DNA from: Candidatus Termititenax sp.
Lineage (GTDB): Bacteria; Margulisbacteria; Riflemargulisbacteria; GWF2-35-9; DYQY01
Reading direction: 5' to 3'
Assembly (NCBI GenBank): GCA_020719045.1
Contig: DYQY01000001.1
Span: forward strand, 192,198-228,206
Length of the DNA: 36,009 nucleotides
A model generated the notes under the pieces. It was given only the letters and a program-made list of their open reading frames with translations. It ran no database searches and had not been told where the DNA came from. Shown here piece after piece: positions 6,660-33,147 of this stretch. Every line of letters begins with the position of its first letter. Position 1 is the stretch's first letter. The translations under genes and the position numbers were made by a program.

Positions 6660-8113
6660 TGAACGACATACTTAAACTTACTGCTATTGAGATTAGCAAA
6701 AAATACCAAACGAAAGAGCTCTCTTGTAGTGAAGTCACAAAGGCCTTTCTTGATAGAATCAGCGCAACAAATACTGAACTAAATTCGTTTGTTTCTATCT
6801 CCGAAAAGACAGCACTTGAAACAGCAAAAATTGTTGATGAAAAAATAGCAAAATCTCAAAGACTTGCTCTGCTTGAAGGTGTCCCAATCGCAATAAAAGA
6901 TAATATGTGCACAAGCGGTGTAGCCACAACCTGTAGCTCCAAAATGCTTGCAAACTTTGTTCCTTCATATGATGCAACTGTTATAGAAAAGATTCGAAAC
7001 AACAATATGCCAATCCTCGGCAAAACAAATATGGATGAATTCGCAATGGGCTCATCTACAGAAACGTCATTTTTTGGTTCAACAAAAAACCCTTGGAACA
7101 CCAACACTGTTCCTGGTGGTTCTTCTGGTGGCTCTGCAGTTGCAATATCCGCACTCCAAGCACCTCTAGCACTTGGTTCAGACACTGGAGGCTCGATCAG
7201 ACAACCAGCCAGCTTTTGCGGAATAGTTGGAATGAAGCCAACTTATGGCGTTGTATCAAGATATGGACTAATAGCTTTTGCTTCTTCACTTGACCAAATT
7301 GGTCCTTTTTCTAAAAATATAGATGACTCTGCAGCACTATTGTCTGTAATAAGTGGCTATGACCACAAAGACTCAACCTCTCAACCAAATATTGATACAG
7401 ACTTCACAAAAATTTCTTCACAAAAAGAAATAAAAATTGGACTTCCGAAAGAATTCTTTGCAAACCTAGACCCTAAAGTTAAAGAATTATATCAAGATAC
7501 TATAAGCATACTTTCAAAAGAAGGTATTATTTTTGAAGAAACAGAACTGCCATCTCTCGAACAAGGAATATCCACCTATTATATTGTTGCTCCAGCTGAA
7601 GCTAGCTCTAATTTAGCAAGGTTCGATGGAGTTAGATATGGCTACAGGAATCAGGAAGCTAAATCACTTGTAGATATGATGGAACTATCCAGAAGCGAAG
7701 GGTTTGGCGCAGAAGTAAAAAGACGTATTCTTATTGGAACATATGTATTAAGTAGTGGCTACTATGATGCGTACTACAAAAAAGCTCAGCAAGTAAGAAC
7801 TATTATGAAAAACGATTTCCAAAAAGCTTTCTCTAAATATGATTTACTACTTTCTCCAACGACACCTACTCCTCCTTTTTCTTTTGGTGAAAAAAGCAAT
7901 CCATTAGAAATGTATATGAATGATATTATGACCATTCCTGCTAACTTGGCTGGAATTCCTGCCCTATCAATGCCTTTTGGCAAAAGCAACAATCTACCAA
8001 TGGGAATACATTTAATGGGTAATTTACTTGAAGATCAGAAATTGTTTTCAATTGCCAAAAAAATAGAACAAATATTAGGGTTTAATATACAAAACCCTTA
8101 CTGGGAGAAATAA
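6659..8113 (+). CDS. gatA: Asp/Glu-tRNA amidotransferase subunit GatA (glutaminase)
   Basis: Amidase-signature subunit that releases ammonia from glutamine and channels it to GatB. The Lys-Ser-Ser triad is intact: K80 (AIKDN), S155 (in GGSSGGS) and S179 (in DTGGSIRQP), with the expected 24-residue Ser-Ser spacing. At 484 aa it is full length. It starts on the last base of the gatC stop and ends directly against the gatB ATG, so the three genes form one tightly coupled unit. Confidence 0.97.
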   Translation: MNDILKLTAIEISKKYQTKELSCSEVTKAFLDRISATNTELNSFVSISEKTALETAKIVDEKIAKSQRLALLEGVPIAIKDNMCTSGVATTCSSKMLANFVPSYDATVIEKIRNNNMPILGKTNMDEFAMGSSTETSFFGSTKNPWNTNTVPGGSSGGSAVAISALQAPLALGSDTGGSIRQPASFCGIVGMKPTYGVVSRYGLIAFASSLDQIGPFSKNIDDSAALLSVISGYDHKDSTSQPNIDTDFTKISSQKEIKIGLPKEFFANLDPKVKELYQDTISILSKEGIIFEETELPSLEQGISTYYIVAPAEASSNLARFDGVRYGYRNQEAKSLVDMMELSRSEGFGAEVKRRILIGTYVLSSGYYDAYYKKAQQVRTIMKNDFQKAFSKYDLLLSPTTPTPPFSFGEKSNPLEMYMNDIMTIPANLAGIPALSMPFGKSNNLPMGIHLMGNLLEDQKLFSIAKKIEQILGFNIQNPYWEK

Positions 8114-9556
8114 ATGAACTGGGAAATTGTCATAGGTCTAGAGATTCATGCTCAAATGTCTACAAAATCAAAACTTATGTGCAACTGTGACGCATCCTTT
8201 ACTAGTGAAGCAAATACTCATATCTGCCCAATCTGTACTGGTCAGCCAGGAATGCTACCTGTTATTAACAAGCAAGTTGTTGAAAGTGCGATGATGATTG
8301 GTCTTGCAACAAAATGTAACATAAGAAAACTAAACGAATTTGCAAGAAAAAACTACTTTTACCCTGACCTTCCAAAAGGTTATCAAATATCTCAATACGA
8401 TAAGCCTATCTGTGAAAACGGAAGCTTAGAAATAGATGTTAATGGTGTTAAAAGAACCATCGGAATTACAAGAATCCATATGGAAGAAGATGCAGGCAAA
8501 CTAGTACACGCAGGAAGCGATAACATAAAAGACGCTTCTTACAGCCTTGCTGATTTGAATAGGTCATCTGTACCTCTTTGTGAAATTGTAAGCGAACCAG
8601 ACTTAAGATCAGCTGAAGAAGCTACTGCCTATGCACAAAAAATAAGACAAATCGTAAGATACTTAGGTGTTTGTGATGGAAATATGGAAGAAGGGTCTCT
8701 GCGCTGTGACGCAAATATTTCTGTTCGACCAAAAGGACAAACTACTCTTGGAACAAAGACTGAAGTTAAAAACTTAAACAGCTTTAAAGCAATCGAGAAA
8801 GCCATCAACATAGAAGTTGAGAGACAGATAGATATTCTTGAAGAAGGTGGAGAAATAGTTCAAGAAACAAGACACTACAATGAAGCAACCAATAGCACTA
8901 AGTCGATGAGAAGCAAAGAAGATGCTCATGATTACAGATACTTTCCCGACCCTGACTTAGTACCTCTTCTAATTGATGATGCTTGGATAAAAAAAGTCCA
9001 AGACGCTTTACCAGAGCTACCGGAAGAAAAGAAAAACAGATACATGAATTCACTTTCATTGTCTGAGTATGATGCAAATGTAATTACGGTTGAAAAAGAA
9101 ACTGTAGCCTTTTTTGAGGAAACTATTAGTTTTGGTGCAAAACCAAAAGATACTGTTAACTGGATTATGAGTGAAGTACTTGGGACACTGAATCAAAAAG
9201 GAATAGAGCTGTCTCAAACAAAACTTACACCTAAATTATTAGCTGAACTACTAATCCTAATAGATAAAAATACAATATCTGGCAAAATAGCAAAAACTAT
9301 TCTTCCTCAGATAATAGAAACTGGTGAAAATGCCGAAAAGATAGTAGCAGAAAAAGGACTAGCTCAAGTGTCTGACCAAGGAGAAATCAAAAAAATAGTT
9401 GAAGCTGTTATAAATGAAAATGCAAAAGTTATTGAAGACATAAAAGGTGGAAATCCGAAAGCCATGGGATTCTTGGTTGGTCAAATAATGAAACGTTCTG
9501 CAGGGAAAGCTAACCCTGGAATAGTCAACGAACTACTAAACGAACTGCTGAGTTAA
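8114..9556 (+). CDS. gatB: Asp/Glu-tRNA amidotransferase subunit GatB
   Basis: Activates and amidates Glu-tRNA(Gln) and/or Asp-tRNA(Asn). The 480-aa protein has VIGLEIHAQ at the N-terminus, an apparently complete zinc site (C23, C25, C38, C41 in CNC...CPIC), YPDLPKGYQISQYD, HMEEDAGK and LRCDANISVRP, followed by the helical tail domain with GNPKAMGFLVGQIMK near the end. Presence of the operon implies that this organism makes Gln-tRNA and/or Asn-tRNA indirectly, at least in part. No terminator is evident directly downstream. Confidence 0.97.
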   Translation: MNWEIVIGLEIHAQMSTKSKLMCNCDASFTSEANTHICPICTGQPGMLPVINKQVVESAMMIGLATKCNIRKLNEFARKNYFYPDLPKGYQISQYDKPICENGSLEIDVNGVKRTIGITRIHMEEDAGKLVHAGSDNIKDASYSLADLNRSSVPLCEIVSEPDLRSAEEATAYAQKIRQIVRYLGVCDGNMEEGSLRCDANISVRPKGQTTLGTKTEVKNLNSFKAIEKAINIEVERQIDILEEGGEIVQETRHYNEATNSTKSMRSKEDAHDYRYFPDPDLVPLLIDDAWIKKVQDALPELPEEKKNRYMNSLSLSEYDANVITVEKETVAFFEETISFGAKPKDTVNWIMSEVLGTLNQKGIELSQTKLTPKLLAELLILIDKNTISGKIAKTILPQIIETGENAEKIVAEKGLAQVSDQGEIKKIVEAVINENAKVIEDIKGGNPKAMGFLVGQIMKRSAGKANPGIVNELLNELLS

Positions 9557-9623
9557 TTTCAATAATCTTACTTTAAAAGGTTTATCATAATATCTTTTGG
9601 GCTAAACATAAATAACACCCTTA

Positions 9624-9830
9624 TTAATTTTGCTTTCTATAAAGAATAATAAAATCAATTAGGTCAATTTCTAGAAAGCAACATATAGCTTCAAGTTCAA
9701 TTTGGTAGTGTACAGTATCGCTACCAATGTCTGGGTTATTTTCAGACAAAGGATCTGTTGGGCTTGGATGGGCAAGCACTTCTAGTGGAACAACAAGTAC
9801 CTCTACTTCTTTTGGATTGGGTTGTATTTT
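9624..9830 (-). pseudogene. Possible gene remnant: startless open frame
   Basis: The minus strand has a 68-codon stop-to-stop frame whose translation looks protein-like (KEVEVLVVPLEVLAHPSPTD, then SENNPDIGSDTVHYQIELEA) and ends LYRKQN. It has no ATG near its 5' end, no Shine-Dalgarno site and no recognised family. It lies in the longest gene-poor gap. A decayed 3' fragment or a chance open frame are both possible. Confidence 0.25.
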
Positions 9831-9943
9831 TTAATTAAATTTTAAAATGTCCCAGAGCTATCTGAGCGAATATAAAATCGCAGATATTTCGATGAACCTC
9901 ACCCACGGAAGATATAAGTATCTTTGAATAATGATTATTGCCG

Positions 9944-10080
9944 TTACCCTCTCCGTTTCATTAAAAATGGAGAGGGTCGCAACATTTTCATCTGTTGAGA
10001 AATAATAGTTATTTTCTGCGGGGAGAGGGTAAAGAATAAGCAAAGTCTCCTTTGCAATAAGCCATGTTAGTGCAACTAAC
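9944..10080. repeat. Cluster of palindromes upstream of lysS, with one left arm and two alternative right arms
   Basis: TTACCCTCTCC (9944-9954) can pair with GGAGAGGGT (9969-9977, 9 bp, short loop) or with GGAGAGGGTAA (10022-10032, 11 bp, long loop). Two further small hairpins follow: GCAAAG/CTTTGC (10040-10055, 4-nt loop) and GTTAGT/ACTAAC (10066-10080, 3-nt loop). The rest of the 9557-10150 gap holds the startless frame above and the lysS -10 box; I see no tRNA and no convincing gene. It may be a REP-like element, a decayed region or a structured RNA. Confidence 0.6.
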
Positions 10081-10135
10081 AAATTAAATGGTATTCGCTT
10101 TAAGCTTAAGTCTTTAAGGTTTTAGCTTTTAGCTA

Positions 10136-10141
10136 TATAAT
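10136..10141 (+). promoter_or_regulatory. lysS -10 box, near-leaderless
   Basis: TATAAT (within GCTATATAAT) ends 9 nt before the lysS ATG, so transcription should start about 3 nt before it. The hexamer 17 bp upstream (TTTAAG) is only a weak -35. Confidence 0.55.
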
Positions 10142-10150
10142 AATTCCGTT

Positions 10151-11638
10151 ATGGAACAACAAGAACACATTGAGCATATAGATGAATTTAAAATCCGAAG
10201 AGAAAAGGTTGCAGAGCTTAGAGCTTCAGGCGTAGAGCCTTATCCAGCATTTTATCATAGAGAGCTAACACTTACTCAGATAAGAGAGCAGTTTCAGAAA
10301 GAAGTTGAAGCAGGCAAAGAAGGCGTGATTGTTTCTACTGCTGGAAGAATTATTGCAAAAAGAGGTCACGGTAAAGCATCTTTTGGTAATCTAATGGATG
10401 AAAACGAAAAGCTGCAAGTTTATGCAAAAGAAGATGTTTTAGGCGCAGAGGCTTATGAGTCTTATATGAAGCTTGATGTTGGAGACTTCATTGGAGTAAC
10501 TGGTGAACTTTTTATTACCAGAACAGGTGAGCTGACAATCAAAGTAACTGAGTATAAGTTACTTTCGAAGTCATTAAACCCACTACCAGAGAAGTTTCAT
10601 GGGTTACAAGATAAAGAACTTAGATACCGTAAAAGGTATTTAGATTTAATTGCAAATCCAGAGATTAAGGACGTATTTGCAAAAAGAAGTAAAATTATTT
10701 CTTTGATAAGAAGAAAGTTTGAAGAAAAAGGTTTTATGGAAGTTGAAACACCAGTTCTACATGCAATAGCAGGTGGTGCAACAGCAAGACCTTTTATAAC
10801 GCACCATAATGCTCTTGATATGAAACTTTATATGAGAATAGCACTTGAGTTACACCTAAAGAGACTCATTGTGGGAGGATTTGAAAAGGTTTATGAAATA
10901 GGTAGAGTTTTTAGAAACGAAGGTATTTCTTATAAGCATAATCCTGAATATACGCTATTAGAGCTGTATCAAGCATATGCAGATTACAACGATATGATGG
11001 ATCTTGCTGAAGACGTTATTTCTTCTTTAGTAAAAGACATGACAGGTAGTTACAAGATTGTTTATGACGGAAATGATATAGATTTTACTCCTCCATGGAC
11101 TAGAGCAACCATGACAGACCTTATTAAGCAGTACTCTGGGATAGACATCAAGGGTAAATCCTTTGAGGAGCTTAAAAAAGAGATTCTTGCAAAAGGAATG
11201 CATCTTAAAGAAGAGCATACATCTGTAGGGCAGTTAATTAATTTCTTATATGATGAAAAAGTAGAGATCAAGCTTATTAATCCAACCTTTGTTACAGATT
11301 ATCCATTAGAGACATCGCCGCTTGCAAAGAAACATCGTGATAATCCAGAATTAGTTGAGAGGTTTGAGCTAGTAGTTAATACAATGGAAATAGCTAACGC
11401 TTATTCTGAACTTAATGATGCTATTGATCAAAGAGGAAGATTCGAAGAGCAAGTTGCGCAAAGAGCAGCAGGCGATGAAGAAGCACATATGATGGATGAC
11501 GATTTCGTAGAGGCACTAGAATATGGAATGCCACCAACTGGTGGACTTGGTATAGGAGTGGACAGGGTTATCATGCTTATTACTGGCCAAACATCAATCA
11601 GAGACGTTCTTTTATTCCCTCATATGCGTCATAAGTAA
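10151..11638 (+). CDS. lysS: Lysyl-tRNA synthetase, class II
   Basis: Charges tRNA(Lys) with lysine. The 495-aa length is normal for bacterial class II LysRS. The OB-fold anticodon-binding domain (about 55-170, with AGRIIAKRGHGKASFGNL) is followed by the catalytic domain. Motif 2 is seen as RVFRNEGISYKHNPEYT and motif 3 as GIGVDR (467-472), and VETPVLHAIAGGATARPF is typical. The ATG has no Shine-Dalgarno site and lies 9 nt after a TATAAT. The gene stands alone between the palindrome-rich gap and a separate promoter for the next gene. Confidence 0.97.
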   Translation: MEQQEHIEHIDEFKIRREKVAELRASGVEPYPAFYHRELTLTQIREQFQKEVEAGKEGVIVSTAGRIIAKRGHGKASFGNLMDENEKLQVYAKEDVLGAEAYESYMKLDVGDFIGVTGELFITRTGELTIKVTEYKLLSKSLNPLPEKFHGLQDKELRYRKRYLDLIANPEIKDVFAKRSKIISLIRRKFEEKGFMEVETPVLHAIAGGATARPFITHHNALDMKLYMRIALELHLKRLIVGGFEKVYEIGRVFRNEGISYKHNPEYTLLELYQAYADYNDMMDLAEDVISSLVKDMTGSYKIVYDGNDIDFTPPWTRATMTDLIKQYSGIDIKGKSFEELKKEILAKGMHLKEEHTSVGQLINFLYDEKVEIKLINPTFVTDYPLETSPLAKKHRDNPELVERFELVVNTMEIANAYSELNDAIDQRGRFEEQVAQRAAGDEEAHMMDDDFVEALEYGMPPTGGLGIGVDRVIMLITGQTSIRDVLLFPHMRHK

Positions 11639-11664
11639 ACAAATCAGCAAATAAAAGCTATAAT
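11636..11664 (+). promoter_or_regulatory. Promoter of the dihydrolipoamide dehydrogenase gene, leaderless geometry
   Basis: TAAACA (11636-11641, overlapping the lysS stop), a 17-bp spacer and TATAAT (11659-11664). The start predicted 7 nt later is 11671, the A of the ATG. Confidence 0.6.
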
Positions 11665-11670
11665 AAACTC

Positions 11671-12975
11671 ATGCACTATGATTTAGTTATAATTGGTGGT
11701 GGTCCAGCTGGCAACGAAGTAGCTTCTTATGTTATTCATAAGGGATGGAAAGTAGCTATCTTTGAAGAGCGTGCGTTTGGTGGAACTTGCCTTAACGTTG
11801 GTTGTATTCCAAGTAAAGGTTATTTGCATAGAGCAAAGTTAGTGTCAGAACTAAAGAGACACAGGATAGAGCATGATAAAGAAAACAAATATTTCTCGTT
11901 AGAAGACTTGCAATCATTTTCCGAAAGAACTATAAACAGAATTTCAATGGGTATCGAGAATCGTATATCCGAGAAAGGTGTGGATGTTTATAAAGAAAAG
12001 GCAGTGTCCTTTGATAAGCAGGAGTTACTGACAGCTAGTGGAGCAAAGATAACTTTTGATAAACTGGTTTTAGCCTGTGGCACAAAGCCTTCTTTCCCAG
12101 GAATACTAAAGGAGATTAAGGATAAGCCAGGTGTTTATACCAACGAAAATATTTTCCAGATAAAAGAGTTTCCAAAAACTATGACAGTTATAGGTGGTGG
12201 AGCTATTGGAATAGAAATGGCATTCTTTTTTGCTAGCTTTGGTGTTTTTGTAGATTTGCTAGAAGCTATGCCTTCAATCTTGGCATATTATGATGATGAT
12301 ATTATTTCTGAGGCAAAAAAGATGCTTAAGAAAAAGAGAGTAAATGTTTTAGAAAATGTTCAGGCAACAGTTATTTCTGATGATTTAACAATAGAGCTAA
12401 GTAATGGAAGTAAACTACAGAACGATATTGTTCTTATTGCTACTGGAAGGAATCTTTGTTTGCCAGATACACAGTTAGAATTAGCTAAGGATAAAAGAGG
12501 TTTCTTGAGTGTGAATGATAGCTTTCAGACTTCTGTTGCAAACATTTATGCAGTTGGTGATGTAAATGGCATTAGCTTGTTTGCACATTCAGCAACAGAC
12601 CAAGGAAAACAACTTGGTAGATATTTTCTTAATAATACTCCTGTAGACCATGAGAGAGTTATTCCTAATGTTGTTTATACTTCTCCAGCAATAGCATCTG
12701 TGGGATTACGCGAAAAAGAATCAGAAGGTTGTGAGGTAATAAAGCTTTCATATGAACAGCTAGGAAGAGCTCATATAGAAAAAGAGACAGAAGGCTTTAT
12801 GAAGATTATTTTAAAAGATGAGGTTGTTGTTGGTGCGCATATTGTTGGCGAGCATGCTGAAGAGATAATTTCTATGATGTGTCTTGCCGTTCAGGAGAAA
12901 ATGACAGTAGCATCACTTAAAAGACTAATTCTTGCGCATCCTACCTATGGGGAACTGTTTGTAGAGGCTTTTTAA
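11671..12975 (+). CDS. lpdA: Dihydrolipoamide dehydrogenase-like flavoprotein (E3)
   Basis: FAD- and NAD-dependent disulfide oxidoreductase that re-oxidises dihydrolipoyl groups of 2-oxoacid dehydrogenase or glycine-cleavage complexes. The 434-aa protein shows the FAD fingerprint IIGGGPAG, the redox pair C40/C45 in GGTCLNVGCIPSK, the NAD fingerprint VIGGGAIGIEMA, the second FAD motif AVGDVNG, and the C-terminal active-site pair H423/E428 in HPTYGE. It is a little shorter than typical E3. Coupling to lipA by a one-base overlap supports lipoate metabolism over glutathione or mercuric reductase. No E1, E2 or glycine-cleavage gene is in the window. Confidence 0.87.
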   Translation: MHYDLVIIGGGPAGNEVASYVIHKGWKVAIFEERAFGGTCLNVGCIPSKGYLHRAKLVSELKRHRIEHDKENKYFSLEDLQSFSERTINRISMGIENRISEKGVDVYKEKAVSFDKQELLTASGAKITFDKLVLACGTKPSFPGILKEIKDKPGVYTNENIFQIKEFPKTMTVIGGGAIGIEMAFFFASFGVFVDLLEAMPSILAYYDDDIISEAKKMLKKKRVNVLENVQATVISDDLTIELSNGSKLQNDIVLIATGRNLCLPDTQLELAKDKRGFLSVNDSFQTSVANIYAVGDVNGISLFAHSATDQGKQLGRYFLNNTPVDHERVIPNVVYTSPAIASVGLREKESEGCEVIKLSYEQLGRAHIEKETEGFMKIILKDEVVVGAHIVGEHAEEIISMMCLAVQEKMTVASLKRLILAHPTYGELFVEAF

Positions 12976-14651: not shown

Positions 14652-14698
14652 AAATTTTTTATTTGCTTGAAGAATAAATACGTCATTAAAATATTCTC

Positions 14699-14726
14699 TT
14701 GACATTATAACGTAAATAAATATAAT
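14699..14726 (+). promoter_or_regulatory. comM operon promoter, consensus boxes, with flanking TAACGTA repeats
   Basis: A perfect TTGACA (14699-14704), a 16-bp spacer and a perfect TATAAT (14721-14726). The predicted leader is about 23 nt and carries AGGAG (14744-14748) 7 nt before the ATG. TAACGTA occurs at 14708-14714 in the spacer and again at 14738-14744, exactly 30 bp apart; this could be an operator or coincidence. Confidence 0.75.
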
Positions 14727-14755
14727 TATGTTTATATTAACGTAGGAGAAAAAGA

Positions 14756-16273
14756 ATGTTAAGTAGAATATATAGTTCAGCATCAAGAGGGATAGAGCCA
14801 GTGTTGGTTGATTGCGAGGTGGATAGTAGAAATGGAATGCCTTCTATAACAATAGTAGGACTTCCTGATGTAGTTGTAAGAGAAAGCAAAGAACGAGTGA
14901 TTTCTGCTATAAAGAATTCTGGCTACACTGTACCAGTAAATAAAACATTGACCATTAACTTAGCGCCAGCGGAGATAAAGAAAGTAGGCGCTTATTACGA
15001 TTTGCCAATTTCTGTTGGGATGTTAGTAAGTACAGGTCAGCTGAGTATAAATATGCCAGATAAGTTTATGATGATAGGTGAGTTAGGGCTGGATGGAAGT
15101 GTTAAACCAGTGAGTGGCGTGCTACTGGTTAGCATATTAGCTAAAGAAAAGGGGATTAAGTATGTATTTGTGCCTAGAGAGAATGCCGAAGAGGCTGCCC
15201 TGGTTGAGGATGTCAGCGTAATAGCAATAGGTACGTTAAAAGAGTGTATCGAGATACTTTCTTCAGGAGACATAGTCAGATATCAAAAGGAAGAATGCAA
15301 GACAGATAATACTAAGACTACTTTAGATTTTTCAGAAGTTAGAGGGCAGTCTTTTGCAAAAAGAGCAGGCGAGATAGCTGCTTCAGGAGGACATAACTTT
15401 TTTCTAATCGGGCCACCAGGTTGTGGTAAGAGTATGATTGCAAAGCGTTTCCCTTCCATATTGCCTGATTTATCAGAACAAGAGGCACTTGAAGTAGTAA
15501 AGATTCATAGTATTTCTGGAAAAACTAAACGAGGGTCTATTTTTAAGTATAGACCATTTCGTTCACCTCATCATACGATTAGCTATGCAGGGCTTATCGG
15601 AGGAACATCTAATTCTAAGCCAGGAGAGGTAAGCTTGGCCCATAAGGGGGTTTTGTTCTTAGATGAGATACTTGAGTTTGATAGAAAGGCGTTAGAGTCT
15701 CTGAGGCAACCAATGGAGGATGGCGAGGTTACTGTAGCTAGGGCGCTGAATAGTTATAAGTATCCAGCATCTTTTATATTGGTGGCTAGTGCCAATCCTT
15801 GTCCATGTGGATTTGCAACACATCCGAGTATCTCGTGTACTTGTAACTCACATCAGAAGCAACAATATTTTAGGAAAATGTCTGGTCCTCTTATGGATAG
15901 ATTTGATCTAGTTGTTGAGATGAGCCCAGTCTCAGAAGACGAGCTATTTAGTAGCGACAGAGCAGAGAGCTCTATCGACATTAAACAAAGAGTCAAGCTT
16001 GCTAGAACGATTCAGCAAAAGAGGTTTGAAGGTAGACAAATAACTCTAAATGCAGAAATGACGGATAGTGATATTTCATTGTTTTGTAAGGTGGCCGAGA
16101 ATACGACTGATTTTATTAAGAAGGCCATAAAGCGTTATTCTCTTAGCGGTAGAGCACTTAATCGTTTATTAAAAGTTGCTAGAACTATTGCAGACATTGA
16201 ACTGTGTGAGGATATTAAGTTAGAGCATGTCTTAGAGGCATTTCATTTTAGGAGAGTTATGGAATATGTTTAA
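14756..16273 (+). CDS. comM: ComM/YifB family Mg-chelatase-like AAA+ ATPase
   Basis: ComM is a hexameric helicase that promotes branch migration when transforming DNA is integrated. The 505-aa protein has the N-terminal Lon-like fold (MLSRIYSSASRGIEPVLVDC, GLPDVVVRESKERV). Walker A is GPPGCGKS (219-226), Walker B is near GVLFLDE (298-304), the FRSPHHTISYAGLIGG segment is intact, and a Cys cluster C349/C351/C361/C363 (CPC...CTC) is present. Unlike many neighbours it has a 5' leader with a good Shine-Dalgarno site. It overlaps the next gene by 8 nt and leads an operon that ends in a secretin, which points to DNA uptake. Confidence 0.93.
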   Translation: MLSRIYSSASRGIEPVLVDCEVDSRNGMPSITIVGLPDVVVRESKERVISAIKNSGYTVPVNKTLTINLAPAEIKKVGAYYDLPISVGMLVSTGQLSINMPDKFMMIGELGLDGSVKPVSGVLLVSILAKEKGIKYVFVPRENAEEAALVEDVSVIAIGTLKECIEILSSGDIVRYQKEECKTDNTKTTLDFSEVRGQSFAKRAGEIAASGGHNFFLIGPPGCGKSMIAKRFPSILPDLSEQEALEVVKIHSISGKTKRGSIFKYRPFRSPHHTISYAGLIGGTSNSKPGEVSLAHKGVLFLDEILEFDRKALESLRQPMEDGEVTVARALNSYKYPASFILVASANPCPCGFATHPSISCTCNSHQKQQYFRKMSGPLMDRFDLVVEMSPVSEDELFSSDRAESSIDIKQRVKLARTIQQKRFEGRQITLNAEMTDSDISLFCKVAENTTDFIKKAIKRYSLSGRALNRLLKVARTIADIELCEDIKLEHVLEAFHFRRVMEYV

Positions 16274-16862
16274 AGAGATAATTCTTCCATTACATGCAAA
16301 TATTAACGTAGAAGAATGTGTAAGATTAAGACTTTCCGAGTTGCTTCATTTTTCGCCAGAGCACTATTGGTTTTCATATAAGAAGAATGGCGACACAGCA
16401 GTAGTTAAGTATAGTACAGATTCAGTAGAAAGCATGAATTTAATTAAAGTTGAAAATAGCGTTGCAAGAAATAAGAAGACGATGATTTTTCTTTTAATAT
16501 TAGTTGTAATGTTTATAGCCAATTGGTTTGTTTTGTCTCTTAAGAAGCAAAGAATGGTTAGTTTAACATTGATAAGACAAATCGCCAAAAATGAACAATA
16601 TCATTGGCAGCATAAGTTAGCTGTAATAAAGAGTGTAAAAAACAGTAATAACGCTTTTCTTGTAAGGATAAATGATTTAATTATGCAGCCACTTTATATT
16701 AATAATCTCTACGTAGATAAAGAGAAGATCAATTTGGATGCGTATATCCAAGAGCAAGATGCGCAGTCTTTTATGGAGTTTTTGATAGCTAAAGGCTTGG
16801 AGGGTTTTGCAAATTTCACTAAAGAAGGAGATAAGCTATGGGTATCGATCAGAAGTTCTTAA
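16266..16862 (+). CDS. Bitopic membrane protein in comM-secretin operon, PilN/GspL-like by position
   Basis: A 198-aa protein with a soluble N-terminal part (1-70), one transmembrane helix (about 73-91) and a C-terminal part of about 105 residues expected in the periplasm. No family was recognised from sequence. Topology and position (upstream of a smaller bitopic protein and a secretin) resemble the PilN/PilO or GspL/GspM inner-membrane assembly proteins of type IV pilus and type II secretion systems; that role is inference. The start overlaps comM by 8 nt, with AGGAGA upstream inside comM. Confidence 0.75.
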   Translation: MFKEIILPLHANINVEECVRLRLSELLHFSPEHYWFSYKKNGDTAVVKYSTDSVESMNLIKVENSVARNKKTMIFLLILVVMFIANWFVLSLKKQRMVSLTLIRQIAKNEQYHWQHKLAVIKSVKNSNNAFLVRINDLIMQPLYINNLYVDKEKINLDAYIQEQDAQSFMEFLIAKGLEGFANFTKEGDKLWVSIRSS

Positions 16863-17146
16863 ACAAGTCCTTATTTGTTACTTTATGTTTGTGTATTATG
16901 TTACTTTCTTGGAATATAACTGGCTTATTTGGTTCGAGCGTAAAGTATTCATTTGAAACTTTTTCATGTAGCGATAATCAATTAAGTTTGTGGCAGAAAG
17001 TGGATGAAAATAGGTATACGTTAAGTAATTTCAACTCAAATGCGTATTTGTCACTCAAGCAATATTTGAAGAGAACAAATGATAAGAAGTTAGTGTCTTT
17101 TGAAGTTGATAATGGGAGGGCGACAATTGTTTTTGAAGCTGTTTAG
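16838..17146 (+). CDS. Small bitopic membrane protein in comM-secretin operon
   Basis: 102 aa: a short N-terminus, a transmembrane helix at about 11-31 (SLFVTLCLCIMLLSWNITGLF) and about 70 residues predicted outside the cytoplasm. It overlaps the previous gene by 25 nt and the secretin gene by about 20 nt. AAGGAG lies 7 nt before the ATG. It could be a reduced PilO/PilP or GspM/GspC equivalent linking the inner membrane to the secretin, but no sequence motif supports a name. Confidence 0.7.
   Translation: MGIDQKFLNKSLFVTLCLCIMLLSWNITGLFGSSVKYSFETFSCSDNQLSLWQKVDENRYTLSNFNSNAYLSLKQYLKRTNDKKLVSFEVDNGRATIVFEAV
17114..17120 (+). promoter_or_regulatory. Ribosome-binding site selecting a TTG start for the secretin
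   Basis: GGGAGGG lies 6 nt before TTG at 17127. Upstream in-frame candidates at 17100 (TTG) and 17112 (ATG) have no such site, and 17127 yields a well-formed signal peptide. Confidence 0.65.
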
Positions 17147-18071
17147 ATTTTTTGTTGGAATAGTTTTACTAAACTTCTGTTTTGGAGTACAAGCTGTTTT
17201 TAATTATCCTGCTGCAACTCCTGTAGTTACTCAAGCAACTGCTGTTAAAGAGCAAAGCTTTGTGATTGATTATCGTTATTTAGAAGAGGAAGAGATAACG
17301 GCATTATCGCAGAAACTTTTCCCAAGTTTAAAAGTTTCAGTAAATAAAAAGAATAAGAGTATTCTTGTTGTTGGAGAGCAGCAAGATATTAAAAGACTTA
17401 GAACCATAATTACCTCTATTGATAGTAATAGAAAATCTGTATACTTCAAAACATGGTTAATAGAAGTTAGTCACAGTAAGTTATCGGGACTAGGTGTTAA
17501 TTGGCAGAATTACAAAGATGGACTTAGTGTAGGCGATATGACAGATAAGCAAAAACTATTTGATAACTTGAGCGCGCTGGTGAGTAAAGGCGAGGCCAAG
17601 GTGTTAGCTAACCCAACAATTACCTGTCTTGATGACGAGATAGCTTTTATTAAGGTGGGAGATAAAATCCCTTATACTGTGCCCGTGGAGAGTGCATCCA
17701 ATAAGGTTGGTTGGGAGCTTAGATACATTGATTCAGGAATTAATCTATCAATTAGACCAAATATTCTGTCTGATGGATTAGTTTCGTCAGTAATAAAACT
17801 AAAAGTAGACAATGTAAAACAGTGGAAGTCTACAATGGCTGGAGAATATCCTGTGCTTTCTAGTCGGGAAATTAACTTAAAGTGTCAGATAAAGAGTGGG
17901 CAGGAGTTAATACTTGGTGGTCTTATAAATAGTAATGAAAGAGAGAATGTTTCAACGCTTCCAGTTTTAGGAGATATCCCATTTGTTGGGTCAATTTTTA
18001 GTCAAACAACAATGGAAAAGGATGATACGGAAATAGTATTTATCTTATCTCCAGAGATTGTTAACTTATAG
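17127..18071 (+). CDS. Short secretin (PilQ/GspD family)
   Basis: Outer-membrane channel subunit. From TTG 17127 the protein is 314 aa, with a signal peptide (about 1-22, ending FGVQA). One small N-type domain follows (VIDYRYLEEEEITALSQKL to LRTIITSIDSN), then the secretin domain. Hallmarks are SKGEAKVLANPTITCLDDE, VGDKIPY, DSGINLSIRPNI, and the signature LPVLGDIPFVGSIF followed by TEIVFILSPEIV. PilQ and GspD proteins are usually much longer, so this is a minimal form without AMIN domains or extra N-domains. As last gene of the comM operon it probably forms a pore for DNA uptake or a pilus. Confidence 0.9.
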   Translation: MFLKLFRFFVGIVLLNFCFGVQAVFNYPAATPVVTQATAVKEQSFVIDYRYLEEEEITALSQKLFPSLKVSVNKKNKSILVVGEQQDIKRLRTIITSIDSNRKSVYFKTWLIEVSHSKLSGLGVNWQNYKDGLSVGDMTDKQKLFDNLSALVSKGEAKVLANPTITCLDDEIAFIKVGDKIPYTVPVESASNKVGWELRYIDSGINLSIRPNILSDGLVSSVIKLKVDNVKQWKSTMAGEYPVLSSREINLKCQIKSGQELILGGLINSNERENVSTLPVLGDIPFVGSIFSQTTMEKDDTEIVFILSPEIVNL

Positions 18072-19122: not shown

Positions 19123-19773
19123 CTAACTTAAAAGTAGGTTTCTTATGTTATCTTTGATTATTTTTTGTTGTTGTTCTATTGGTTTCAGGCAATCAACAGT
19201 TACAAACTTATAAGATTTTGCCATTAGTTCATATTGTTCAAGTAGTTGAGATTGGTATTTTTTTATGGAAATAGAGGTGTTTGGACTTAGTCCAATGTCC
19301 ATTCCGCTATCATAATAGTCATTTTCTTTTTGTTCTTGCGTAACTCTACCAAGTGCTTCATCAGCATCGATTTTAAAATAAAAAGTTAGGTCTGGTTCAA
19401 TTGCGAACTCGTAAACCTTGTTAATCCAGTCTTTGTTTTGTCCTCTTAGATAATCTTTAGCAATCGAGGTATATACGTATTTATTAAATAAAACGATAAA
19501 TCCAGACTTAAGAGCAGGGATAACTTGATTATGCATAAGGTCGCTAAAGTCTGCGGCATGAATTAGGCTATAGGTTATAGGAATTAAGGATTTTTCTTGT
19601 TTTGCTTCTGCTATGTTAGCTGATACCAGCGGTGAGTTTTTTCTTTTAAGTAAAGAAACACCGTAACCTTCAATTTCAAGCCAATTCTTTGTTAATCCTA
19701 GCTGAGTAGTTTTTCCACTACCATCTAACCCCTCTGCTACGATAAGTTTACCAGGATAGTTATGTTTCTTCAT
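19123..19773 (-). CDS. Thymidylate-kinase-like P-loop protein with altered DRY motif
   Basis: 216 aa, P-loop kinase fold of the dTMP kinase type. The P-loop EGLDGSGKTT (14-23) is intact, but the DR(Y/H) motif found in active dTMP kinases reads FNKYVYT (N97, K98), and the usual Glu-Pro-Gly segment near residue 45 is KRKNSPLV. It overlaps the upstream paralog by 4 nt (ATGA), with AAAGGAAG just upstream, so the two are co-translated. It may be a degenerate partner in a heteromeric enzyme or a kinase for another substrate. Confidence 0.8.
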   Translation of the reverse strand: MKKHNYPGKLIVAEGLDGSGKTTQLGLTKNWLEIEGYGVSLLKRKNSPLVSANIAEAKQEKSLIPITYSLIHAADFSDLMHNQVIPALKSGFIVLFNKYVYTSIAKDYLRGQNKDWINKVYEFAIEPDLTFYFKIDADEALGRVTQEQKENDYYDSGMDIGLSPNTSISIKKYQSQLLEQYELMAKSYKFVTVDCLKPIEQQQKIIKDNIRNLLLS

Positions 19774-20492
19774 TGAAACTTCCTTTTAATTATTTGAAGA
19801 ACTTTTTCTCTAAAAAGTATCTGTTTATCATGTATTTCCTGTGTGCCATCCATTAGAGTGAATCCGAATTCATCTACCATTGTTTCATACTCTGAAATAA
19901 CTTTAGACTGGAATAGCAAATAGCTTTTATATGGATCATTGCTAAGTTTCATATCCATTCCTGCTTCATAGTATTTAGGTTTTCTGGTTTGGGTGATTCT
20001 TTCTAGGCTAACCTCAACAGGCACCTGAAAATAAAAGATACCATCAGGCTTTATAGCAAATGAGTACATATTTCTTAGCCATTCTCTATCACAATTTCTA
20101 GCATAGTCTCGTGCAAGAGCAGTATAAATATATCTATCAGCCAAAACGATATAGCCTGAAGACAAAGCTGGGATAATTGTTTTATATAGTCTATCAGCGA
20201 AGTCAGTTGCATGTAGGAGACTGAAAGTGTTGCTATCTAGGAGTCCTTCTTTCTTTCCTTTTCTAATTGTTTTTGCTACAAGAGCAGATGAGTTCCATTC
20301 AGTAAAAATAACAGGATAACCCTCAGCGATAAGCCATTTTTTAAGTAGGTGTAGTTGTGTAGATTTGCCAGAACCGTCTGTGCCTTCGACAACTAGGAGG
20401 ATTCCTTTGTGTGGGTGTGACTTATATAGGTTACTATTTAAGGTAGACTCTAGGAATTCTGTAGTGTTTTTTTGTTTTTTTTTAAAGACCAT
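19770..20492 (-). CDS. tmk: Thymidylate-kinase-like P-loop protein, first of a tandem pair
   Basis: 240 aa with an N-terminal extension of about 30 polar residues before the kinase core. The P-loop is EGTDGSGKST (36-45) and the DRY motif is intact at D119-Y121 (LADRYIYTALARDY). The segment TEWNSSALVAKTIRKGKKEGLL replaces the common E-x-R-x-P-G-x-T motif of classical Tmk. It is probably the active dTMP kinase or a related nucleotide kinase. It shares the fold and many residues (HA-DF-D, IPAL-SG-IVL) with the next gene, pointing to tandem duplication. A TATTAT or TATAAA sequence lies 11-14 nt upstream of the ATG. Confidence 0.82.
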   Translation of the reverse strand: MVFKKKQKNTTEFLESTLNSNLYKSHPHKGILLVVEGTDGSGKSTQLHLLKKWLIAEGYPVIFTEWNSSALVAKTIRKGKKEGLLDSNTFSLLHATDFADRLYKTIIPALSSGYIVLADRYIYTALARDYARNCDREWLRNMYSFAIKPDGIFYFQVPVEVSLERITQTRKPKYYEAGMDMKLSNDPYKSYLLFQSKVISEYETMVDEFGFTLMDGTQEIHDKQILFREKVLQIIKRKFQ

Positions 20493-31839: not shown

Positions 31840-32268
31840 GTGAAGAAGTTTATTTTTAGAATGCAGCGTGTTTTGGATATTAAGGAAAAGAAAGAGGAGA
31901 TGCTCAAGCAAGAGCTTGGAAAATTGATACAGAGAAGAGTTGCACATGAAGAGGTGAGAGATTATTTTATTAAGCAAATGAATGATGAGTTTAATAAAAT
32001 GAGAGACAGTAAATCGTTTTCAAGTGCAGATCAAACATTAGAAGAGAATTATATTCATGCCTTAAAGAATAATATTTATAAACAGAAACTGATAATTACT
32101 GATTGTGAAAATAAGATAGATAAGAAGAGATTAGAAATTCTGGAGAACAGAAAAGAAATTAAAGTTTTAGAGAAGCTAAAGGAAAAGCAAAAAGAGCAGT
32201 ACATGTATGACTATATGCTTCTTGAGCGTAAAGAAATGGATGAAGTAGCTTCAAGAGTTACTCTCTGA
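31840..32268 (+). CDS. fliJ: Flagellar export chaperone FliJ
   Basis: 142-aa coiled-coil protein that inserts into the FliI ring. It begins FIFRMQRVLDIKEKKEEMLK, the usual FliJ N-terminus, and is helical and very charged throughout. Start is GTG with AGGAG 6 nt upstream, one base after the fliI stop. The 3' end overlaps the convergent gspE-like gene by 18 nt. It is the last gene of the flagellar operon in view. Confidence 0.87.
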   Translation: MKKFIFRMQRVLDIKEKKEEMLKQELGKLIQRRVAHEEVRDYFIKQMNDEFNKMRDSKSFSSADQTLEENYIHALKNNIYKQKLIITDCENKIDKKRLEILENRKEIKVLEKLKEKQKEQYMYDYMLLERKEMDEVASRVTL

Positions 32269-33147
32269 AGGTAGAAATATTTCAAAGTCAGCGGTTCTGT
32301 TATGTTCATCTTTTTTAATTAGTCGTTGATTGAATACGCCTAGTAGTGCTTCTTGGATAAGTAGTTCCTTTATTTCAAAATCAATAAACCTTGCGATAGC
32401 TGATTTTGCAGTATTTGTATGCATGGTAGCAAATACTAGGTGTCCAGTCATGGCTGCCCTAATGGCAATTTGAGCTGTTTCCTGGTCTCGTATTTCTCCT
32501 ATCAAGATAACATCTGGGTCATGTCTTAGTACAGACCTAAGAATATTGGAGAAGGTCATGCCAATTACTTCATTTACCTGTATTTGGGTAAAGGCTGGGA
32601 CGATGTATTCAATTGGGTCTTCAATGGATACAATATGTAGGTCCGGTGATTGGTTATGTAGATGCTTAATTAGCGAGTACAGCGTGGTTGTTTTGCCGCT
32701 TCCGGTTGGTCCAGTAGTAAGAATCATGCCTTCTTTCTTGCTCAGTAGCAACTGTGTTTTTTCTAAAAGATTTTCATTCATTCCAAGCTGGTGTATGCTT
32801 GGGATATTATTTCCTTTTGGAAGAATTCTTAGTGCTATGTTTTCACCAAATAGAGAAGGAATAATAGATATTCTTAAGTCGTGTTCCTCATTTTCAGTAG
32901 CAAAGCTAAACCTTCCGTCTTGGGCATTTAATGAATTAGATGAACTTAAGTTAGCTAGCACTTTTATTCTGTTTACAATAGAAGAGTAGATTTCAATTGG
33001 TAGTGTGTTGGTAGTTACAAGCTTACCAATTATACGGTTTTTTACTATTACACTTTGATCAGTTGGGTGGATATGAATGTCTGTCGCATTATTCTTTATT
33101 GCGTTTTTGATAATCTCATTTATTTGATACACCGGATTTGATTGCAC
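32251..33147 (-). CDS. Minimal GspE/PilB-type secretion ATPase
   Basis: 298-aa hexameric ATPase for pilus assembly or type II secretion. It has a short N2-like domain (ATDIHIHPTDQSVIVKNRII), Walker A GPTGSGKT (146-153), an Asp box (SIEDPIEY), Walker B (DVILIGEIRDQETA) and a His box (HLVFATMHTN). GspE and PilB are usually 500-570 aa; the N1 domain is missing, and the four-Cys zinc motif after NQRL is absent (NQRLIKKDEH). Start GTG 33147 has AAGGAGGT 8 nt upstream, so the short form is not a mis-called start. It may serve the secretin encoded at 17127-18071. Confidence 0.88.
   Translation of the reverse strand: MQSNPVYQINEIIKNAIKNNATDIHIHPTDQSVIVKNRIIGKLVTTNTLPIEIYSSIVNRIKVLANLSSSNSLNAQDGRFSFATENEEHDLRISIIPSLFGENIALRILPKGNNIPSIHQLGMNENLLEKTQLLLSKKEGMILTTGPTGSGKTTTLYSLIKHLHNQSPDLHIVSIEDPIEYIVPAFTQIQVNEVIGMTFSNILRSVLRHDPDVILIGEIRDQETAQIAIRAAMTGHLVFATMHTNTAKSAIARFIDFEIKELLIQEALLGVFNQRLIKKDEHNRTADFEIFLPSESNS

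Follow-up and report, generated by a model that had tools for sequence, protein, structure and literature searches.

An overlapping comM–secretin operon in a Margulisbacteria genome: a candidate envelope part of a DNA-uptake pilus

Described secretin systems and the layout of the operon

In natural transformation, ComM acts as a helicase in DNA recombination. Type IVa pili have a PilMNOPQ operon (comABCDE or hofMNOPQ in Gammaproteobacteria), which has been linked with DNA uptake in a number of species. In V. cholerae, the pilus secretin has been considered in relation to competence (PMC7545093). Type II secretion has GspL, GspM and GspD; according to PMC3815138, the cytoplasmic region of GspL corresponds to PilM and its periplasmic region to PilN. 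For monoderm Com systems, the relevant passages of PMC6668835 describe PilMNOP homologues as lacking or rare nearby, and present a filament phylogeny in which the secretin was lost once, early, as the monoderm Com system arose. The Margulisbacteria phylum is described, in a passage of PMC6784892, as being without isolated representatives, and our search of the open-access literature returned no account of competence in it.

We analysed a 36,009-nt stretch ("the window") of a genome from the Margulisbacteria group, an uncultured relative of cyanobacteria, represented by a 1.75-Mb assembly of 31 contigs that is 99% complete. The operon comprises a sigma-70 consensus promoter (14699–14726, + strand), followed by comM (14756–16273, +; 505 aa, a YifB family Mg-chelatase-like AAA ATPase), followed by a gene for a 198-aa bitopic protein (16266–16862, +), followed by a gene for a 102-aa bitopic protein (16838–17146, +), followed by a gene for a short, 314-aa secretin (17127–18071, +), with overlaps of 8, 25 and 20 nt, in gene order. 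The initial annotation had described these four genes as one overlapping unit behind a consensus promoter, and both the genes, at these coordinates, and the promoter are confirmed.

Comparison with the described systems reveals a mixture of shared and divergent features. Like PilMNOPQ, the operon encodes, in this order, a PilN-like protein, a bitopic protein where PilO would stand and a secretin; unlike PilMNOPQ, it begins with comM, appears to retain PilM only as a short N-terminal part joined to PilN, has no PilP that we could find, and encodes a secretin of 314 aa with a single N domain. Like GspL of type II secretion, the 198-aa protein has a cytoplasmic piece, a transmembrane (TM) segment and a periplasmic domain, with PulL/PulM fold matches, and the secretin scores best as GspD; unlike type II secretion, the cytoplasmic part spans ~70 aa, no GspC was found, and the secretin is without most N domains. 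With the monoderm ComG pilus, the genome shares a ComGB-like platform, weak similarity to ComGA, ComGD and ComGF, ComEA and ComEC; unlike that pilus, it encodes a secretin and a GspL/PilN-like partner.

The promoter matches the consensus TTGACA-N16-TATAAT at 12 of 12 positions and is one of two perfect sigma-70 sites in the window, against 0.05 expected. A sister genome keeps the −35 element, the −10 element and the intervening AACGTAAATAAA, and promoter-like TTGAC(A/G)...TAAT sequences lie upstream of comM in L052–L054. Separately, three ACGT tetramers spaced ~30 nt apart (14680–14741) flank the promoter on both sides, in the sister genome as well; such a triple is expected 0.03 times across the 158 kb examined, and the tetramers possibly constitute an operator. 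A regulatory motif common to competence genes was considered and rejected, as no such triple is present near the other competence genes examined.

ComM, the secretin and the two bitopic proteins

The comM product scores 569 bits against the YifB family model TIGR00368 (cut-off 362), contains the Lon-like N domain/ChlI, Mg_chelatase and Mg_chelatase_C domains (PF13541, PF01078 and PF13335), and retains intact GPPGCGKS, LFLDEI and CPCG...CTC cysteine motifs. Judged by family score, domains and motifs, it is a full YifB/ComM with the features of a ComM/YifB helicase.

The secretin assignment is equally clear, with 132.9 bits against PF00263 (cut-off 27.5) and one Secretin_N domain detected below threshold. 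Among NCBIfam-type family models GspD gives the best score; among solved structures in the PDB the best relatives are GspD and PilQ, and the weakest is a virion export protein. Two start codons are candidates, TTG at 17127 (314 aa) and ATG at 17112 (319 aa); the sequence GGGAGGG precedes the TTG both here and in the sister genome. This is the sole secretin found in the genome.

Direct searches of Pfam, NCBIfam and the PDB with the 198-aa and 102-aa proteins gave no meaningful match, and evidence for the 198-aa protein comes from its relatives and its predicted fold. The protein has a single hydrophobic stretch from approximately residue 74, preceded by ~70 residues. Its syntenic counterpart in L064 exceeds the Pfam PilN cut-off (23.9 vs 22.8 bits), and two more syntenic counterparts fall slightly under it. 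Profile comparison links the order's 198-aa family to the L064 group over an N-terminal piece (E 3e-4, with a probability of only 39%); with a second group, the link runs through the periplasmic domain (E 3e-7, probability 93%). The predicted structure, a moderate-confidence model built on four sequences (mean pLDDT 69), consists of a beta-alpha-beta-beta unit, a long TM-bearing helix and a beta-beta-alpha-beta-beta unit. The top 50 Foldseek matches of this model include, at E > 0.1, the 236-residue PulL structure 5tkw, which we take to be the cytoplasmic part of PulL, and the PulL/PulM C-terminal domains 8a9w, 8ab1, 8a9x and 5hl8. Taken with the correspondence of GspL to PilM–PilN, the PilN and profile links and the PulL-like fold indirectly suggest, with moderate strength, that the 198-aa protein is a reduced GspL-type (PilM–PilN) homologue.

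The reduction would affect the cytoplasmic part: with ~70 residues ahead of the TM segment and no PilM_2 match, the protein does not have a complete actin-like GspL/PilM cytoplasmic domain. A PilM_2 search gave one sub-threshold match, covering 43 profile positions in a 342-aa frame that is possibly MreB. A genome search with the PilN model returned nothing, and this model is insensitive, since it found matches in only 2 of 14 control genomes.

The 102-aa protein has a single hydrophobic stretch from approximately residue 12, with a predicted fold of one TM segment followed by beta-beta-alpha-beta-beta, and relatives keep a protein in its position. A fold search with its model was uninformative, since it returned mainly kinase fragments, and profile comparison with the syntenic small proteins gave no link. 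It fits a PilO/GspM-like protein by position, topology and predicted secondary structure only. The initial annotation had placed inner-membrane partners where PilN, PilO and PilP would be; structure and profile comparison bears this out for the 198-aa protein through its PilN/GspL links and leaves the 102-aa protein with no informative match, while no PilP-like protein occurs among the operon's genes. In other families (L055, L056, L060, L063, L067 and L070), a lipoprotein of ~120 aa is encoded directly upstream of the secretin; it looks PilP/GspC-like by eye, and a Pfam search with two of these lipoproteins gave no match.

Conservation of the operon and other pilus and transformation genes

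We searched 95 genomes for the secretin, obtained matches in 85, and compared genes in stretches from 40 of the matching genomes. In all five other secretin-positive genomes of the order (G001–G005), comM is followed by homologues of the 198-aa and 102-aa genes and then by the secretin gene, with the G004 contig beginning inside comM and the small proteins of G002 and G005 paired by position and alignment rather than by BLAST; a sixth genome of the order (G006, 86% complete) gave no secretin match. The comM–secretin adjacency pointed out in the initial annotation is thus kept across the order, and was seen in this order only: outside it, no comM was found within the stretches compared. The block of comM and the triad (the two bitopic proteins and the secretin) is kept, with tight gene overlaps, in at least two families. 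Upstream flanks vary between these families, whereas nitrilase and thymidylate-kinase genes downstream are shared in part; only on the upstream side does conservation of the block therefore go beyond general synteny. At 19123–20492 (−) of the window lies an overlapping pair of adjacent thymidylate-kinase-like genes, which are kept near the secretin in the order.

The triad itself has a wider distribution. Many families outside the order have a bitopic protein of 150–310 aa, a bitopic protein of 90–165 aa and a short secretin. That the triad is part of a pilus-family machine is best supported by a row of genes in L073, from the same class (7126–11747, −), comprising a prepilin peptidase gene, four prepilin-like genes (one with a ComGD/GspH-like match), a GspL/PilN-like gene, a gene at the PilO position and a secretin gene. 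A first collection scan with the secretin detected no relatives, and a second with an alignment detected three, the named ones being Candidatus Marinamargulisbacteria metagenome-assembled genomes.

The host genome contains genes characteristic of diderm natural transformation: comEC, comEA (SLBB plus helix-hairpin-helix), dprA, motor, platform, prepilins, prepilin peptidase and secretin. Of the genes by which the initial annotation proposed to recognise a transformation system, comEC, dprA and prepilin genes are present and a clear pilT is not, absences here being the outcome of family searches on the 99%-complete assembly. ComEC (645 aa, L013:7248–9185, −) has no Lactamase_B match in its C-terminal part, and its nuclease-like domain may therefore be missing or degenerate.

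Two motor/platform sets can be recognised. On contig C31, PilB and PilC genes adjoin genes for small prepilins, which have no detectable homology to the L073 pilins past the N-terminal helix. Contig C17 encodes the second of the genome's two PilC-type platforms, a ComGB-like one with relatives in the rest of the order; a GspF-like platform is present in the genome, and GspG-like prepilins are encoded on C28 and C17. In the window, outside the operon, lies a candidate motor gene (32251–33147, −) for a 298-aa GspE/ComGA-type ATPase with 292 bits against PF00437 (model scores: GspE 315, PilB 277, ComGA 272 and PilT 207 bits), located between genes for flagella and for the shikimate pathway. Over the core it shares 44% identity with PilB of this genome, and it stops before the cysteine-rich C-terminal part of PilB; together with the C17 platform, it may form a second pilus motor. 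These are the only two strong PF00437 matches in the genome, and for both, the PilB/GspE models outscore PilT, whose cut-off neither reaches. No motor or pilin gene is linked to the operon in the host genome.

Candidate functions and significance

We consider it probable that the operon supplies the envelope-spanning components of a type IV pilus for DNA uptake and expresses them together with ComM. This reading draws on the overlapping operon and its conserved promoter, the gene order in G001–G005, the PilN/GspL homology of the 198-aa protein, the L073 row, and the sole secretin in a genome with ComEC, DprA, ComEA, a prepilin peptidase, PilB, platforms and prepilins; the analysis shows gene content, conserved order, the further parts in the genome, and homology for ComM, the secretin and the 198-aa protein. 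The presence of comM in one operon with the pore suggests that the pore serves DNA uptake, and the grouping of ComM with pore and alignment proteins is in keeping with a pilus for DNA uptake. Against it count the comM–triad linkage in this order only, the occurrence of comM, comEC and dprA also in bacteria not known to be transformable, the absence of a PilP-like protein and of a clear PilT from the search results, the lack of a sequence or fold match that would assign the 102-aa protein, the E ≥ 0.1 of the 198-aa fold matches, and the separation of the operon from motor and pilin genes.

Specifically, the secretin would form the outer-membrane pore, and the 198-aa and 102-aa proteins would form an inner-membrane alignment complex linking the pore to an ATPase and a platform of the pilus, whose genes lie elsewhere. 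Through this pore, a pilus would draw DNA into the periplasm, ComEA and ComEC would take one strand inward, DprA would pass the incoming strand to recombination, and ComM, from the same transcript, would extend the recombination joint. We infer the role of the 102-aa protein, the joint action of the parts, DNA as the cargo, its movement by a filament, and the tie of ComM expression to uptake; either motor set might use the pore. The word "streamlined" in the initial annotation describes the envelope part only, since motors, platforms and prepilins are encoded elsewhere in the genome, and DNA uptake is a putative function.

A possible but rather unlikely account makes the triad a general type IV pilus or type II-like envelope part, serving adhesion, motility or protein export, with comM co-transcribed for no functional reason. 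The occurrence of the triad, unaccompanied by comM, elsewhere in the phylum, the confinement of the comM linkage to one order, the GspD top score of the secretin, and the GspG-like prepilins and GspF-like platform are in line with this account; however, the comM–triad block persists with tight overlaps in at least two families despite differing upstream flanks, and ComEA, ComEC and DprA accompany the sole secretin. Type IV pili that also take up DNA are present in many Gram-negative species, and the two motor/platform sets with one secretin mean that the pore may be shared, yet a general adhesion or motility pilus that also takes up DNA, with ComM co-expressed, is improbable here, with no clear PilT-type retraction ATPase. 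We give almost no credence to a secretin of phage type (filamentous phage export), or another remnant of a mobile element, beside comM, since, although the secretin is short and has a virion export protein as its weakest PDB relative, its best PDB relatives are GspD and PilQ, GspL/PilN-like partners recur across the phylum, and the triad adjoins pilin genes in L073.

Returning to the DNA-uptake pilus, its relation to monoderm systems admits a further proposal, which we regard as unlikely: a ComG-like competence pilus of a diderm that retained its secretin and GspL/M-like partners, representing the state before secretin loss at the monoderm origin. The ComG-type assignments involved are tentative and come from weak model scores. 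If true, the presence of a secretin in a Com-type pilus of a diderm would be notable given the filament phylogeny described above, and would bear on the gain or loss of secretins by competence pili. If the DNA-uptake reading is correct, structural work would gain a very small set of alignment-complex proteins and secretin (~200, 100 and 314 residues), and the placing of a recombination helicase and an outer-membrane pore on one transcript would tie both ends of natural transformation together genetically.
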